DNA from: Natranaeroarchaeum sulfidigenes
GTDB lineage: Archaea > Halobacteriota > Halobacteria > Halobacteriales > Natronoarchaeaceae
Assembly: GCF_017094485.1 (NCBI RefSeq)
Contig: NZ_CP064786.1
Span: 1,798,001-1,862,000 of the forward strand
DNA length: 64,000 bases
Reading direction: 5' to 3'
The notes beneath the pieces are model-generated. The model was not told where the DNA came from, ran no database searches, and saw only the letters and a list, made by a program, of their open reading frames with translations. Position numbers and translations under genes: made by a program. Numbering within the stretch: the stretch's first letter is position 1; each line of letters begins with the position of its first letter. Shown here one piece after another: positions 15,431 to 23,226 of the stretch.

Positions 15431-15859
15431 TCAGCCAATTCCGAGCCATCTCTCGGCGACAAACGACAGCGTCAGAACGAGTATAGACGCAACGAACAGT
15501 TGCCGACGGACCGGCATTCGATGGTGCGGGTCGGGGAGACCGATCCACCGAAGCGGTGGGAGCGATCTTGCTATGGACTGAATCCGCGTCGAACCCGCTA
15601 CAGTCTCCCCTGACGGCGCCTGTTCGTCGAGATCGTCCGGCGACGAGGGCCACATGAGAAACGTTGCGTAGGCAAGCAAACACCAGCCGGTGACGAACAG
15701 CAAAGCGTTTGCTCGAGCGAGTTCGCCGCCAGTAGCTACAGAGACGACGAGCGCACCCACAATACACAGTATAGCGACGACCAACGCATACGCAGCCGTG
15801 TCAATCCAGCGACGGGCAAACCGACCGATGCGGGTTTCAGGGGGCTCCGGAGCCGACAT
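15431..15859 (-). CDS. Small membrane protein coupled to ABC operon 2
   Basis: The 142-aa protein has helices at about residues 22-42 (TAAYALVVAILCIVGALVVS), 50-67 (ANALLFVTGWCLLAYATFLM) and 120-136 (LFVASILVLTLSFVAE). I do not recognise the family. Its ATG overlaps the stop of the last ATPase gene (ATGA), so it is translated with the transporter and could be an accessory subunit or regulator. Coding support comes from the overlap and the clear helix pattern; function is unknown. Confidence 0.72.
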   Translation of the reverse strand: MSAPEPPETRIGRFARRWIDTAAYALVVAILCIVGALVVSVATGGELARANALLFVTGWCLLAYATFLMWPSSPDDLDEQAPSGETVAGSTRIQSIARSLPPLRWIGLPDPHHRMPVRRQLFVASILVLTLSFVAERWLGIG

Positions 15860-17196
15860 CAGTACCGTTCGTTGAGAACCTGTGCCGGGTCGCGATATGT
15901 CGACTCGTGACGGTGGCAGTAGCTCTTGTGATCGGAAGTTGACGTTGAATGATATTCCGGTGGCTCTGACTCACAAACGCTGCCGAACTCCTCCGAGAAG
16001 ACGGCTAATGCTTCTGCCTCTTCGTTGTCTTCGGCGTGATCTGCAATCCGATTCAGAACAACCTCTACATCCTTTGGGACCTCCTGATCGCCAAATAGCT
16101 CCTCGTAGGTTTCCTCGACGGTCGCAAAGCGCGTTTCCCCGCCAAAGCGTTCACGGAGTCGTTCTCGAATCGATCGTTCGGCACGCTTCCGTTCTCGAAG
16201 AATCTCTCGCAGTTTGTTCAGCTCGGCCCACAGTTCATCATCCAAATCGGGGAAGCCATCCGGACGGATGCGAGCCGGACAACGTGTGCTGAACGGACAG
16301 CCGGATGGTGGGTATCGGGGGTTCGGTGGCGTCCCGTGAAGGATTATCCGTTCTCGATCAATCGTGGGATCAGGCTCCGGGATCGCCGAAAGCAAGGAGT
16401 GTGTGTAGGGGTTTGAGGGGTTCTCGAATATCTCCTCCGTGGGGCCAACCTCCATGATGTTACCGAGATACATCACGGCGACTCGATCACAGATATGGCG
16501 AACAACTGAGAGATCGTGGGCAATAAACAGATACGTTAGCCCGAACTCATCCTGAAGGTCGTCCAGCAAATTGATGATTTCGGCCTGAACGGAGACGTCA
16601 AGTGCGGAAACCGGCTCGTCGAGGACGATGAAGTCGGGTTCGAGCGCGAGCGTCCGGGCGATACCGATCCGCTGACGCTGACCACCGGAGAACTGGTGAG
16701 GATACCGATAGTAGTGCTCTTTGCGAAGCCCAACGGTGTCGAGCAGCGATTTGACGTGGCGGCGACGCTCGCGCGGCGATTTCCACTCGTGAACGTCGAG
16801 TGGTTCCTGGATGATTTCGCCGATCGTCATTCGATCGTTGAGACTCGACTCCGGATCCTGAAACACCATCTGCGCGTCGCGTCGCCACTCGTGCAGTTCA
16901 TCACGACTGAGCGTCGTGATATCGGTCCCATCGAATCTGACCTCTCCCGCAGTGGCATCTTCTAGCTGGACCAGAGTCCGGCCAAGCGTCGTCTTCCCAC
17001 AGCCGGACTCGCCGACAAGACCTAGCGTTTCACCACGGTATATATCGAATGAAACGCCGTCGACAGCCTTGACCGGCACGCCACCGAACAGTCCACCCGA
17101 CTCGTAGTGCGTTTTGAGCCCGTCAACCTCAATGATCGTATCTTCTCTCTCCTGGGTCGGTGCCTCGCTGTCAGTCGCCTGTACGTGCTCGCTCAT
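15859..17196 (-). CDS. Oligopeptide ABC transporter ATPase 2 (DppF-type) with split cysteine domain, operon 2
   Basis: The 445-aa ATPase has Walker [11 protein letters not shown] loop [12 protein letters not shown], signature FSGGQRQR, Walker [13 protein letters not shown] and H loop FIAHD. The terminal cysteine motif is interrupted. After SGCPFSTRC there are about 100 residues, largely charged helix ([20 protein letters not shown]), before [10 protein letters not shown] and SYCHRHE. The same place is interrupted in the operon 1 homologue with unrelated-looking sequence. It overlaps both neighbours by ATGA junctions. It pairs with the ATPase encoded at 17196-18518. Confidence 0.93.
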
Positions 17197-18518
17197 CAGT
17201 ATTTCTCCATGTCAGTTGACAGTTCGTGGTAGTCGATGCGTTGCTGTTCGGATAGTTCTTCAGGGTAGAGGAGACATGCCGCGGTGTGATCCTCGGCATC
17301 CGTCGACTCGATATCGACCGCCCGGGGATGTACTGCTGAACACTCGTCGAACGCCTTTGGACAGCGCGGTGCGAACCGACAGTACGTCGCCGGTTCATTT
17401 GGCGTCGGGACGTTCCCTTCGATCGTATTGAGACGGTCGCCGGTCTGCTGTCCAGGAATCGACCCCAACAGTCCTTCGGTATAGGGATGTTTCGGATTCG
17501 CGAACAGCGATTTGACACCAGCGCTTTCGACGATTTCGCCAGCATACATCACGTTGACGCGGTCGGACGTTTCGGCAATAACACCCATATCGTGTGTGAT
17601 GAACATGATCGAGAGATCCCGTGTGTCCTGAAGTTCGTCAAGCAGGTCGAGGATCTGGGCCTGAATCGTCACGTCCAGTGCCGTCGTGGGTTCGTCACAG
17701 ATCAGCATCTCCGGGTCACAGGCCAGTGCCATCGCGATGACGGCACGCTGGCGCATCCCTCCCGAGAACTGGTGGGGATACTCCTTGATACGACGTCTGG
17801 CATCCGGAATACCGACGGCTTCGAGCAGCCGAGCAGCCTCTCGTGTTGCATCTCTCCCGGTGATTCCCTGATGGAGGGAGAGCGCTTCCTTGATCTGATT
17901 ACCAACTGTGTACACTGGGTTGAGGCTCGTCAACGGATCCTGAAACACCATCGCAATGTGGTCGCCACGCATCCGCCGGAGGGATTCCCCTTCGAGCTGT
18001 GTGATTTCGACGAAACCGTCAGAGATACCTGACGGGCCATCCCCGTTGCGCCGAGTGACGAAGACGCAGTCCTTGTCATCGATGAGGTCGAGTTCGGGGC
18101 CGTAGGCGGCCAGCACGTCGACCAGTGGAACCTCATGTCGGTTATCGTAGCCGAACGTCTCAGGCGTGGCGGCGAGTTCCTCACGGTCGAACAGTTCGGC
18201 AACGTCATATCTCTCCTCTAGATCCGGGACGTCAACGACTCGACTTGAAAAATCCGAGGCGTACTGACGCACGGTATCGGGCTCGTGGAACTGGATGCTG
18301 CTACCGTCAAGAACGCGACCCGGAGATTCAACCAGGCCCATCAGTGACCGGGCTGTCACACTCTTTCCCGACCCGCTTTCGCCGACGATCCCGACGGTCT
18401 CCCCGAGACGAATATCGAAGGAAATCCCATCGACTGCACGGATCGTTTCCTTATCGGTGAAGAACGCAGTCTGGAGGTTCTGCACTTTGAGCATCGGGGG
18501 AGCACGTTCGGAAGCCAT
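17196..18518 (-). CDS. Oligopeptide ABC transporter ATPase 1 (DppD-type) with inserted domain, operon 2
   Basis: The 440-aa ATPase has Walker A GESGSGKS, signature FSGGMRQR, Walker [12 protein letters not shown] and H loop FITHD. Between Walker A and the Q loop ([12 protein letters not shown]) there are about 139 residues, against about 48 in the operon 1 homologue. The insertion is therefore near 90 residues and includes [20 protein letters not shown] and a possible strand pair ending in [11 protein letters not shown]. The rest, including the cysteine domain [16 protein letters not shown], is normal. Insertions here project from the nucleotide-binding face and could contact the partner ATPase or a regulator. 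Confidence 0.92.
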
Positions 18519-20248
18519 CAGGCACCACCCCCCGCGGCACCGGAGTCAGCACCCTCGCCGACATCCGCCTCGGGATCGATTGCGTCGCGGATTCCATCGC
18601 CGAGCGCGTTAAACGCCGTCACGACGAGAACGATCATTATCCCCGAAATCGTGGCAACGTGATACGACGACGTAGCGACGTATGGCTGACCCTGATCGAT
18701 CAGCCGCCCCCACTCCGGAGTCGGTGCACTGATGCCGAGCCCGAGGAATGTCAGTGCGGCGGTGGCGATAATGACACCACCCAGCAGTAGCGATGCGTAG
18801 ATCATGATGTAGCCAGCGATGTACGGAGACATGTGTTTTTGCATGATACGGAGTGGCGACTGCCCGTAGCTTTTCGCGGCGTCGACCCAGTCCTGCTCTG
18901 CGACCTGTAATGACGGGCCACGTATTGCACGCCACATCCCGGGCCAGTAGGCAAACGCAAAGATCAGCGCCAGCAGTATGCCTCCATCCAGTGGTTGGGC
19001 AACGGGATGATTTGCCTCGGTAAACAACACGGACATGAGCATAACCAGGAGGAACGCTGGAATCGCGATGATGGTGTCGCTTGCGATCACAGTCAGCATA
19101 TCAGCCAGTCCTTTGTAGTATGCAGTGATCAACGATAGAATCACCGCGATAAGTGCACCAAGTCCGATCGCAGTGAGTCCGATCACGAGCGACGTCTGGG
19201 CACCATAGGTGAGGTTTGTTAACAGGTCTTGCCCTCTCGGTGTCGTCCCCAATGGCGCCCACCGATCGTACTGATCGTAACTCAATGGGGAGACAGTGTT
19301 CTGTCCGTCAGAACGGGTGTGAACGTTTGCACTACCGTGGGTAGTCGATTCGATTTCGCCGTCCTCTGTCAGATAGTCAAACTCGTGATTATACGGCTCG
19401 TACACGTTCTCTTCGACGGGGACAGGACTGATCGCAGACGCCCAGAGCGCCATTACAACGAACAGCAGGACGATGGCGAGACCAAACAGTCCCCAGTAAT
19501 GATTGCGGAACCGACGGATGGTATCATCCCGCGGCGTCCAGTCGGCTTGGCGGTACTCGTCCCGGTACACATTGTATCCACGCCAGGCCCACGCCACGCA
19601 CGCACCAACGTAAGCGAACACTATGGTGACTCGAATACCCCACGCAACCGCTGGCGAGAGGCCCATGAACGTCCCGGCCCAGCCACCGTCCGGAGTACGG
19701 TGTCCCATATTCGGGATCAGGTCCGGGCTGGTGATATGTGGGACCGCCGCAGCGATCGATTCAAGCAGGCGTGCCGTAAAGCTAATTTCGTGCGACACGA
19801 GCGAGCCAAGCGGTGTGAAAGCGAGGATACTGGCTACGATAGCGAGGATCACAGTAACCAGCGCACTCTCCGCGTAGAACTCACCGCGCCGAGTCAGATC
19901 GACGTCGAACCGATCTATCAGCCGCCCGGGCAGTACCAGCGCCACGAGGATCATTGAAACGACAAAGAGCATCACTAATGCAGTCAAGTCGCTCGCAAGC
20001 GCACCGGCGAACCGTCCAAGGGTAGAAGCTACGTTACCACCGATCCAACCGGGTAGCGCCGCGACCCCGTCGAAAACGAATTTTGCCGCCGAACCGAGTT
20101 CGACCAGCCAGCCAAGATATCGACTGAACTCCAGAGCGAACAGTATACCTGCACCGAGAAGCCAGAACAGGGCAGGACGTGGGTTCGTTTCGACTCGTTC
20201 TCGAATCGATACTTCGTCGTCAAGCGCCTCGTCGTAATCACTACTCAT
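18518..20248 (-). CDS. ABC transporter permease (DppC-type) with long N-terminal membrane extension, operon 2
   Basis: The 576-aa protein is nearly twice the family length. The first 230 or so residues contain four to five extra helices (PALFWLLGAGILFALEFSRY, ALVMLFVVSMILVALVLPG, SALVTVILAIVASILAFTPL). The OppC N-terminal segment (RRFRNHYWGLFGLAIVLLFV) and the BPD core then follow, with coupling loop DAAKSYGQSPLRIMQKHMSP and end FNALGDGIRDAIDPEADVGE. A mild GAGGG-type tail closes it. It overlaps the start of the DppD-type gene and the end of the DppB-type gene. Confidence 0.91.
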   Translation of the reverse strand: MSSDYDEALDDEVSIRERVETNPRPALFWLLGAGILFALEFSRYLGWLVELGSAAKFVFDGVAALPGWIGGNVASTLGRFAGALASDLTALVMLFVVSMILVALVLPGRLIDRFDVDLTRRGEFYAESALVTVILAIVASILAFTPLGSLVSHEISFTARLLESIAAAVPHITSPDLIPNMGHRTPDGGWAGTFMGLSPAVAWGIRVTIVFAYVGACVAWAWRGYNVYRDEYRQADWTPRDDTIRRFRNHYWGLFGLAIVLLFVVMALWASAISPVPVEENVYEPYNHEFDYLTEDGEIESTTHGSANVHTRSDGQNTVSPLSYDQYDRWAPLGTTPRGQDLLTNLTYGAQTSLVIGLTAIGLGALIAVILSLITAYYKGLADMLTVIASDTIIAIPAFLLVMLMSVLFTEANHPVAQPLDGGILLALIFAFAYWPGMWRAIRGPSLQVAEQDWVDAAKSYGQSPLRIMQKHMSPYIAGYIMIYASLLLGGVIIATAALTFLGLGISAPTPEWGRLIDQGQPYVATSSYHVATISGIMIVLVVTAFNALGDGIRDAIDPEADVGEGADSGAAGGGA

Positions 20249-21288
20249 TTGTCATACCCCACTCGTGGATCGATAATCGTGTACAGGAAGTCCTGCAAGA
20301 TGTTCAAAAACAGGATTATCACTGTGAACACGAACAACAGGGAACCAGCAAGCGGAAGATCGCCCTGAATAACTGCCTGGAAGAAGGTTCTCCCCAATCC
20401 GTTGATGTTGAAGATCTGTTCGACGATGACCGATCCGCCGATCAACAAGAACGCCTCGTTGGTAATCACCGGGACGAGCGGGATGAGAGCGTTCCGGAAC
20501 ATATGTTTCCAGACGATGACGCGGCTGGTCAGTCCCTTCGCTCGTGCGGTCTGAATATAGTTGGAGTTGATCGTTTCGAGAACGGCGGTTCGTCCGATTC
20601 GCAGTTCGGCAGCCATCGACGCGGACCCGAGAACGAGTGCCGGGGGGAGGATTAATTTAATATCGACTGCCAGTGCTCCCCAGTCGATGTACGACGTACT
20701 GTCGGCGAACCAGTTGAGGTTGGGCGTCCCTGTGATACTCTGTCCCGCCTCGTAAAAACTCGGACCGAACGCGTACCAGTCAAATCCGAACCAGCCCCCG
20801 CCCTGTGTCTGTCTGAGCACAGCCAGAAGCATCACGCACAGCCAGAAGTTCGGCATCGCCTGCCAGAGAATACCACTGACTGACGCGATGTAATCACCCC
20901 AGCTGTTGGGATGGAGTCCCGCATAGAATCCGAGCGGCAGACCGATAAACAGCGGGAGCATGATCGCCCAGAAGCCAAGCCATAGCGTTGGTGGTGCTGT
21001 ATCTCTAAGCACTGCTGTGACGGCGCGATCTCCCTGTACAACCCAGGACTGCCCCTCGAGCAGAATCAGGTCCCTGGCAAACTGGAGATACTGCTCCCAG
21101 AGCGGATCGTTCAATCCAAGCCGCTCTCGCATCCGGTTCGCCTCTGCACCAGTCGCCTCGGGGCCGAGTCGGGCAGCGACCGGGTCGATCGGCCCCATAC
21201 GAAGCATTATAAACAGGAACGTGATGACCAGAAAGAGGACGGGGATCGTGAGCAACAGCCGCTTGAGGAAGTATTCCCAGCGACTCAT
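20245..21288 (-). CDS. ABC transporter permease (DppB-type), operon 2
   Basis: The 347-aa permease starts MSRWEYFLKRLLLTIPVLFL, has the loop ATGAEANRMRERLGLNDPLW, the coupling motif IQTARAKGLTSRVIVWKHMF, and ends TIIDPRVGYDK, the DppB hallmark. Length and topology are normal. It overlaps the downstream permease by 4 bp. The binding-protein gene lies 105 bp upstream, and that gap contains AT-rich sequence that could hold a processing site or secondary promoter. Confidence 0.93.
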   Translation of the reverse strand: MSRWEYFLKRLLLTIPVLFLVITFLFIMLRMGPIDPVAARLGPEATGAEANRMRERLGLNDPLWEQYLQFARDLILLEGQSWVVQGDRAVTAVLRDTAPPTLWLGFWAIMLPLFIGLPLGFYAGLHPNSWGDYIASVSGILWQAMPNFWLCVMLLAVLRQTQGGGWFGFDWYAFGPSFYEAGQSITGTPNLNWFADSTSYIDWGALAVDIKLILPPALVLGSASMAAELRIGRTAVLETINSNYIQTARAKGLTSRVIVWKHMFRNALIPLVPVITNEAFLLIGGSVIVEQIFNINGLGRTFFQAVIQGDLPLAGSLLFVFTVIILFLNILQDFLYTIIDPRVGYDK

Positions 21289-21393: not shown

Positions 21394-23226
21394 TTAGGCT
21401 TCTTCTTCCAGTTCGACCTGCCAGTCGAGGTAATATCCCGTCGCGTCCGTTGGGAGAAGTTCCGTATCGGTGTTTTTCGGCTCGAAGCCGAAGTGACCGT
21501 AGGCAGGGTCCTCCCAGCTCCAGATCCAGCCAAGGGAGAACATTTCAAGATCCCCGTCTTCACCGCGGCTCTGGATCGTTGCGAACGGTGCCTGTTCGAG
21601 GTCGATGTCGACTGGGCTCCCAGCGAGCGCATCACGGGTCTGTTCGGCGGCTTCAGCGAACGGTTCGTCGCCCTCGTAGGTCGTTATAGTGAACGAGAAC
21701 GGGTCGGTGTCACTGTAACCCGCATCCTGCAGCACCTGTTCTGCGGACTGGACATCGGTCTCGTTGGGCGAGTACGGCCAGTTGTCGACCCACTCGTCGT
21801 ATCCCTCGGCGTCCATCGGCATTAACGCGGGTGGGAGGAAGCTGAACGCCTCGACACCACGTCCCGCGAAGACGTCTTGGACTAGCTCTTCGTGGTCAGT
21901 GACGTAGGCAACTGCCTGTCTGACTTCCTGTGGAACCCTGTCGGCGTTGAACCCGAAGTAGAACGTGCTGAGTTCCGGAACTGCGAGGTAGTTTGCCGTC
22001 TCATCGTTTTCGAGTGGTCCATACTCGCCGATCTCCCGGCCACGGTCGTCCTCCTCGGCATCGATGAGGTCGGGGTCGTACTGGGCTGTCGGAATCCCGA
22101 AGATGTCAGCGTTCTCCTCCATCGCATAGGTGTAGGCCGCATCATCGTCTTCGATGATCTCCCAGTGCACTGCTTCGAGGTCGGCAACTTCCCCGTGATA
22201 GTCGTCGTTTCGGGTCAGCCGGACCTCTTCGTTAAGAGTGAACTCGTCGTACTCGAACGGACCAGTCCCGTTGGCCATCTCGGTACGGAACTCGTCGTGG
22301 TCGACCTCCCCGTCGTATCCGTCGATGTCGCCGACGAGCCCTTCCGGAATCACGGCGAAGCCGCTGTAGCTCACAATATCGAGCACACCGGGAGTCGGTC
22401 CCGTGAGCTCGATTTCGAAGGTGTGGTCGTCAAGTGCTTCGATGGCGGGACCATCCTCTTCATCGTGCTCAATACCGACACCGTCGGGCGTGTTCAGTGC
22501 AAAGTTGGCCCGCTCGCTGTTCTCGGACTCGATGAGACGACGCCACGAGTAAACGAAGTCGTCGGCTGTTAGCTCCTCGCCACCGTGGAATTCGACGTCG
22601 TCCTTGATCGTGAACGTCCACGTCAGGCTGTCGTCGGACACCTCGAACTCTTCGAGGAGTTGGTTTTCGAGTTCTGCAACACCGTTTGGATAGCTGGTGA
22701 GTGTCTCGTAGACGTTGTTTATCACCGCACTGGACGCCGTGTCCGTCGACATGATCGGATCGAACTCGTCGAACGTCGCATTGATCAAGTTGAGTTCGTC
22801 GGAACCATCGTCGAGGGTCGTAGTATTGTACTGCTGGTGGTGAGCACCGAGGAGGCCAGTTTCCGGAACATCCACCCAATCGTACCAGAACCGCTCTTCG
22901 AGGTTGTGAAACAGCGGGAGTGCGATCACCGAATCTCGAACAGCCTCCTCGATCTCCAGATAGGCTTCGTTGCGGATGTCTTCGTCTTCTGGATCGGGAT
23001 TTTCGACGACCCGCTCCCAGGCACGCTGTGCCTTGTCGGCTTCCGTCCCCGTCTCTTCCTCACCGTTCTCGTCACCGTTCTCGTCACCGTTCTCCGCTTC
23101 CTCATCGTCGTCGAGGATCGCAGAACAGCCGGCGAGTCCGACCGTCGCGGTTCCGCCCAGAAGGCCGAGCATGGTTCGCCGATTATCGTCAATACTGTGC
23201 CGTTCGTTGGAACGTGGCATATCCAT
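21394..23226 (-). CDS. ABC transporter substrate-binding lipoprotein with apparently permuted SBP domain, operon 2
   Basis: The precursor has a Tat motif (DDNRRTMLGLLGGTATVGLAGC) with lipobox cysteine and an ENGDENGDENGEEE linker. The next segment, AWERVVENPDPEDEDIRNEA and then EEAVRDSVIALPLFHNLEER, looks like the C-terminal helix of SBP_bac_5 proteins. Only after it comes the usual domain start (LINATFDEFDPIMSTDTAS). The protein ends at DWQVELEEEA, just where that helix would normally follow. So the order looks circularly permuted, with the binding fold otherwise complete. ATG codons at 23226 and 23220 are both plausible starts; an in-frame GTG at 23244 is less likely. Confidence 0.9.
   Translation of the reverse strand: MDMPRSNERHSIDDNRRTMLGLLGGTATVGLAGCSAILDDDEEAENGDENGDENGEEETGTEADKAQRAWERVVENPDPEDEDIRNEAYLEIEEAVRDSVIALPLFHNLEERFWYDWVDVPETGLLGAHHQQYNTTTLDDGSDELNLINATFDEFDPIMSTDTASSAVINNVYETLTSYPNGVAELENQLLEEFEVSDDSLTWTFTIKDDVEFHGGEELTADDFVYSWRRLIESENSERANFALNTPDGVGIEHDEEDGPAIEALDDHTFEIELTGPTPGVLDIVSYSGFAVIPEGLVGDIDGYDGEVDHDEFRTEMANGTGPFEYDEFTLNEEVRLTRNDDYHGEVADLEAVHWEIIEDDDAAYTYAMEENADIFGIPTAQYDPDLIDAEEDDRGREIGEYGPLENDETANYLAVPELSTFYFGFNADRVPQEVRQAVAYVTDHEELVQDVFAGRGVEAFSFLPPALMPMDAEGYDEWVDNWPYSPNETDVQSAEQVLQDAGYSDTDPFSFTITTYEGDEPFAEAAEQTRDALAGSPVDIDLEQAPFATIQSRGEDGDLEMFSLGWIWSWEDPAYGHFGFEPKNTDTELLPTDATGYYLDWQVELEEEA

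Follow-up and report, generated by a model that had tools for sequence, protein, structure and literature searches.

We asked whether a substrate-binding protein (SBP) of an archaeal ABC importer, encoded in a 64,000-nucleotide stretch of the Natranaeroarchaeum sulfidigenes genome (hereafter the window), carries the parts of its chain in a rotated order. The open reading frame at 21394-23226 on the reverse strand encodes a product of 610 residues, here P0001, and heads an importer operon whose remaining genes follow on the same strand from 21288 to 15859. These encode a DppB-type permease (20245..21288), a DppC-type permease (18518..20248), a DppD-type ATPase (17196..18518) and a DppF-type ATPase (15859..17196), assigned from their reading frames and from synteny, which for dppF holds in the longer loci. 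The dppB gene comes next after the SBP gene here, and a downstream dppB is conserved for almost every SBP that we examined, whether permuted or canonical. The initial annotation described a lipobox, an ENGDENGDE linker, the segments AWERVVENPDPEDEDIRNEA and EEAVRDSVIALPLFHNLEER, the start of the ordinary SBP domain at LINATFDEFDPIMS and an abrupt end at DWQVELEEEA, and we found each of these where it had placed them. The C-terminal helix that it cited from the homologue in operon 1, RSAEDRDELQEVFNELFVNL, also exists as claimed.

P0001 belongs to the SBP_bac_5 (cluster C) family and is a lipoprotein of the Tat type. Its N-terminus, MDMPRSN...DDNRRTMLGLLGGTATVGLAGC, includes the twin arginine and the lipobox, and is followed by the acidic linker and then by EADKAQRAWERVVENPDPEDEDIRNEAYLEIEEAVRDSVIALPLFHNLEERFWYDWVDVPETGLLGAHHQQYNTTTLDDGSDELNLINATFDEFDPIMS. 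The signal peptide spans residues 1-34 (23125..23226, reverse strand, as for all parts of the gene), with arginines at 16-17 and the lipobox LAGC ending in Cys34; R16, R17, G33 and C34 are nearly invariant among 39 permuted orthologues. The acidic linker (residues 35-61; 23044..23124) is predicted to be disordered, with pLDDT below 50 over residues 1-57. Module A (residues 62-138; 22813..23043) comprises two helices (62-75 and 79-99) and a strand (102-115), and both its homology to canonical C-termini and its AlphaFold secondary structure identify it as the canonical C-terminal module, here N-terminal. A connector of residues 139-143 (22798..22812), placed by alignment with canonical proteins and confident in the model, links the former C-terminus to what was the mature N-terminus. 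Module B (residues 144-477; 21796..22797), where the SBP_bac_5 match starts, is the mature N-terminal part of canonical SBPs, and module C (residues 478-602; 21421..21795) runs from a boundary near 478, which is the cut site of the CAB-type relatives described below, to the residues DWQ. The new C-terminal tail, VELEEEA, and the stop codon occupy 21394..21420. The chain ends as YYLDWQVELEEEA, and the cut site is the loop that separates DWQ from the moved helix; at this point the canonical orthologue L088 runs on as YLDWQEEDSEEMQKAADAWETIENN. Pfam reports a single domain in P0001, SBP_bac_5 (PF00496), at residues 185-576 (220.8 bits against a cut-off of 32.4).

The proposal that a C-terminal segment had moved to the N-terminus was borne out by comparison with the canonical orthologues that head the corresponding operon. 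Residues 60-138 of P0001 match the C-termini of these proteins far more closely than chance would allow; the best of these matches (L088, 114 bits) reaches 70% identity across 77 residues. Canonical relatives from the same taxonomic order match P0001 residues 141-590 first and residues 60-140 directly downstream, within one open reading frame and at 29-51% identity; G034 and G017 match colinearly. We also cut P0001 into modules A (60-138), B (141-477) and C (478-600) and located each in the fetched loci. Many proteins had the order B-C-A and many A-B-C, one at first had C-A-B, and every module occurred once per protein. One match each to A, B and C, in swapped order and with nothing duplicated, is the pattern that defines a natural permutant. 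A separate C-terminal helix would have spoken against the move, and we found no second copy of module A. The P0001 stop codon lies 103 nt from dppB and one C-terminal module needs about 230 nt, so there is no room for a second copy between them.

Comparison with proteins of known structure is consistent with this order. In PDB sequence matches, the aligned part of P0001 starts at about residue 150, and at its end the query offers no counterpart to the C-terminal regions of the known chains. Searched alone, module A gave a weak match, in the expected region, to the C-terminal residues 495-539 of the 562 in the OppA-type protein 2wok, which at E 0.16 is not significant by itself. In canonical SBP_bac_5 proteins the C-terminal helix and strand come last; in P0001 this module lies at residues 62-138, making P0001 a permuted variant and not a canonical member of the family.

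We then considered whether the fold would survive such a rearrangement. The AlphaFold model of the permuted protein (39 permuted sequences) reached a pLDDT of 85.1 and a pTM of 0.81, and that of canonical L088 reached 84.4 and 0.81. The two contain identical secondary-structure elements, rotated in their order: P0001 opens with two helices (62-75, 79-99) and a strand (102-115), and L088 closes with two helices (549-562, 567-587) and a strand (590-602). The models give no sign that the N-terminal segment sits at an unrelated site; the elements with which it opens are those that end the canonical protein. In the confident part of the model, the old termini are joined by the five-residue connector between strands 137-138 and 144-149, which places the native termini close together in space. 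Foldseek grouped the permuted and canonical models alike with OppA, DppA and NikA (probability 1.00); the P0001-type model, with a best E of 6e-27 (OppA) and a TM(target) of up to 0.70, has a predicted bilobed fold of the DppA/OppA type. Alignments covered about 550-590 columns for the canonical model and about 450-540, with lower scores, for the permuted one. Foldseek aligns in sequence order and cannot align permuted chains whole, and the shorter alignment is what the moved module would lead one to expect. The swapped-order homology and the rotated elements of the models support the initial annotation in its view that the chain is permuted and the fold, as predicted, retained.

P0001 is not alone in its order. 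Two close permuted relatives came from the related-locus search and far more from whole-genome searches, and further order types were found with two profiles, one for the A-B junction and one for the C-A-B junction. The latter was covered in one piece (1-325) by CAB proteins, over about 1-205 by canonical proteins and from about 121/133 to 325 by ABC proteins. Among 137 distinct haloarchaeal family members, a sample picked by similarity and not a census, 64 had the canonical order BCA, 44 the P0001 order ABC, 27 the order CAB, and two a fourth order. The haloarchaeal CAB proteins are cut near P0001 residue 478 and the fourth order, in L143 (G094) and L270 (G154), within B near residue 257. The canonical orthologues L088, L089, L085 and L010 come from operons orthologous to that of P0001 and differ from it in their B-C-A order. 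One genome, G211, encodes a second permuted (ABC) SBP as the C-terminal part of a 975-residue protein (L080:2764-5688 (+)), whose N-terminal part has a weak protein kinase match (PF00069, 24.6 bits, below the cut-off) followed by a hydrophobic helix, RRSVLGFLGLAGGGSVV; the whole may be a kinase-like membrane protein that carries the permuted SBP as its outer sensor.

ABC, BCA and CAB proteins were all found heading dppB-dppC-dppD(-dppF) operons. For the comparison with these operons we built the SBP tree on modules B and C only, and ABC and BCA proteins interleaved alike in this tree and in the DppB tree. The DppB that belongs to the canonical L088 operon is nested among DppB proteins from permuted operons (97/93). 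The DppB encoded with the permuted L084 groups with those of the canonical L010 and L116 operons (99/80). The matching interleaving indicates that the order changed in place, inside orthologous operons.

Could the apparent order have arisen without a permutation? A misjoined assembly, a misannotation or a frameshift might mimic one, and the CAB order was first seen solely in G026, a 63%-complete genome of 40 contigs. It was subsequently found in 26 more haloarchaeal proteins, however, and the ABC order is common to 44 distinct proteins, many of them from genomes with a single-contig main chromosome. With the P0001 reading frame uninterrupted behind an intact signal peptide and the operon neighbors intact, an artefact of this kind is extremely improbable. 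It could also be argued that P0001 gained an unrelated or paralogous domain in front and independently lost its C-terminal module; the authors of the work on TpMglB-2, a permuted SBP discussed below, considered that its permuted part possibly came from another gene (PMC4990184). Here, however, module A and the rest of the protein are equally near to canonical orthologues. In the closest pair of opposite order, L088 (BCA) and L063 (ABC), identity is 75% in B, 81% in C and 78% in A, from which it follows that A moved with its own protein. A profile-profile comparison matched the permuted N-terminal to the canonical C-terminal module with a probability of 100%, E 1e-48 and 70% identity, and trees with and without module A recovered the same groups. 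We therefore regard fusion with truncation as very unlikely. With a single-copy module in swapped order, accompanied by conservation, synteny and recurrence, P0001 is almost certainly a true circular permutant that arose in nature from a peptide-binding lipoprotein of cluster C (SBP_bac_5). It most likely still serves the adjacent importer, of the DppBCDF type, as substrate receptor.

Rotated cluster C proteins also occur elsewhere. CAB-type SBPs are rotated as P0001 is but cut at another place, near P0001 residue 478 or after the AGY helix at about 505, and besides the 27 haloarchaeal proteins they include members of a second archaeal family, f21, within the same phylum (L176-L178), three from Bacillota (L228, L232 and L237), WP_237182973.1 of Roseomonas and WP_238532955.1 of Halalkalicoccus. 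Within one f21 genus, three species (G491, G483 and G530) have the CAB order and four the BCA order at 83-87% identity, the CAB cut falling after the AGYSE helix; the close relatives found in other f21 genera are BCA. The permuted SBP gene of this genus is also inverted, divergent from dppB (L216:7827-9443 (-) vs L215:4697-6307 (-)); the canonical gene precedes dppB in G430 and G550, and lies at an unrelated place in the canonical species of the genus. Genome G550 also encodes a further f21 protein of CAB order, with a C-terminal PGF-CTERM anchor (L175:3733-5496 (-)), whose surface-anchored chain end falls in lobe 2. The three Bacillota proteins gave contiguous C-A-B matches. Pfam finds two stretches in L228 and L237, with the early part of the profile late in the chain, and likewise in the Roseomonas marmotae and Halalkalicoccus jeotgali proteins, which are annotated simply as ABC transporter substrate-binding protein. 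The genome from which the window comes encodes another rotated SBP_bac_5 protein, which has the CAB order and is cut after the AGF/AGY helix (L005:1489-3261 (-), G000:C1 ~1384504-1385490).

How might such chains arise? The change from a canonical signal-linker-[B-C-A] chain to the signal-linker-[A-B-C] chain of P0001 would have joined the old ends through the connector of about five residues and opened new termini in the loop that runs from the end of module C to the C-terminal helices. Two standard models are permutation by duplication and fission followed by fusion (PMC3320104). The likeliest origin would be a tandem duplication of the gene, an in-frame fusion and trimming of the outer parts that had become redundant, while the signal peptide stayed. 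Of the two models, duplication is the better fit, since both signal peptide and linker are retained and the family includes canonical copies in tandem (L114). These are two canonical paralogues in G387 (L114:2-1744 (+) and L114:3808-5718 (+)), the arrangement that this route would need. No A-B-C-A or tandem-fused intermediate, with A at both ends, was present among the loci read. With the native termini side by side, changes of order are tolerated and have recurred.

The position of the cut bears on the lipid anchor. In BbOppA4, domain I comprises residues 30-62, 187-285 and 504-530, domain II residues 63-186 and domain III residues 286-503 (PMC5736914). By these limits, and by alignments of OppA-type chains across the cut, the ABC, CAB and AGY cuts map to domain III (lobe 2), and the cut of L143 and L270 to the N-terminal lobe. 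With a cut in domain III, the N-terminal anchor would leave from lobe 2 and not lobe 1, so that the permutation would have shifted it from one lobe to the other. The median anchor linker is 32 residues in ABC and 35 in BCA proteins, with no sign of an altered anchoring geometry, and because these lengths are alike a functional change from the permutation, as the initial annotation envisaged, is possible and no more. P0001 probably retains its function in binding and transport as the predicted lipid-anchored Venus-flytrap receptor of the neighboring importer, the role established for DppA (PMC12136057).

Two further questions concern the history of the order and whether selection favored it. 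The gene tree of the 137 members requires at least eight order changes; CAB forms one clade (support 100) and ABC takes five changes. Rather than several independent permutations, the ABC order might have arisen once, anciently, in the clade of the window protein and later reverted to BCA in L088, L089 and L097/L100. One gain and three reversions would be as parsimonious as several gains (five ABC changes in total, including L084), yet each reversion would be a second full rearrangement. Forcing the main-clade ABC proteins into one clade cost 47 log units and is rejected, although only moderately (AU p 0.023, 0/200 bootstraps), and trees cannot separate gain from loss. A single origin is accordingly a serious contender, toward which we lean somewhat less than toward repeated change. 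The permutation may have been selected for because moving the anchor from lobe 1 to lobe 2 altered the contact between receptor and permease. Three of the four cut sites lie in domain III, both lobes touch the DppB scoop in DppABCDF (PMC12136057), and an anchoring role was suggested by the TpMglB-2 authors (PMC4990184). However, the fourth cut, that of L143 and L270, falls in the N-terminal lobe; three hits in domain III are not improbable, given that it is the largest domain; the linkers are long and of similar length; and all orders coexist in orthologous operons. We consider selection on the anchor unlikely.

P0001 shares its fold family and operon type with canonical cluster C SBPs such as DppA, OppA and NikA (1dpp, 1b05, 8are), and differs from them in that its C-terminal module of about 77 residues is N-terminal and its new termini lie inside lobe 2. 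A lipoprotein anchor is also found in Gram-positive and archaeal cluster C SBPs. The closest known case is TpMglB-2 (Tp0684), the glucose-binding lipoprotein of 'cluster Bc', which is naturally circularly permuted with binding shown to be retained (PMC4990184); like P0001, it is a natural permutation of a tethered binding protein of an ABC importer. Unlike P0001, TpMglB-2 is a sugar-binding protein of cluster B (type I), another fold class, and its N-terminal strands moved to the C-terminus. A single order was described for it, and the sequence similarity of its modules is almost lost (PMC4990184). P0001 lacks the cluster B core of these proteins, as both Pfam and Foldseek assign it to SBP_bac_5/OppA. 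None of the 60 best PDB matches spans the rotated C-A-B junction, and we thus found no solved permuted cluster C SBP among them. We likewise found no description of one in open-access papers, and importer binding proteins go unmentioned in the paper on CIRPIN, a structure search that allows for permutation.

Circular permutation in nature usually comes to light between distant relatives, where the trail has been lost. What is unusual here is the recurrence of the permutation and the existence of closely related pairs of opposite order. As relatives that are 70-87% identical differ in order, the haloarchaeal ones while heading an equivalent operon, the route, cost and consequence of permutation become testable by gene swaps. 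PF00496 covers only the middle part of the protein, so that an ABC form passes for an ordinary member and a CAB form shows up as one domain in two fragments; profile libraries conceal such permutations. The design of biosensors by artificial permutation of these proteins gains naturally tested cut sites. For the family as a whole, we tentatively suggest, on evidence that we judge to be almost evenly balanced, that cluster C SBPs may be a repeatedly re-permuted fold, with at least four cut sites, at least eight changes within a single group of haloarchaeal orthologues, a recent permutation that arose independently in the f21 genus and rotated bacterial members. Order would then switch in situ, inside orthologous operons, toward the permuted state and possibly away from it again, and the lobe that carries the anchor would itself be evolvable.
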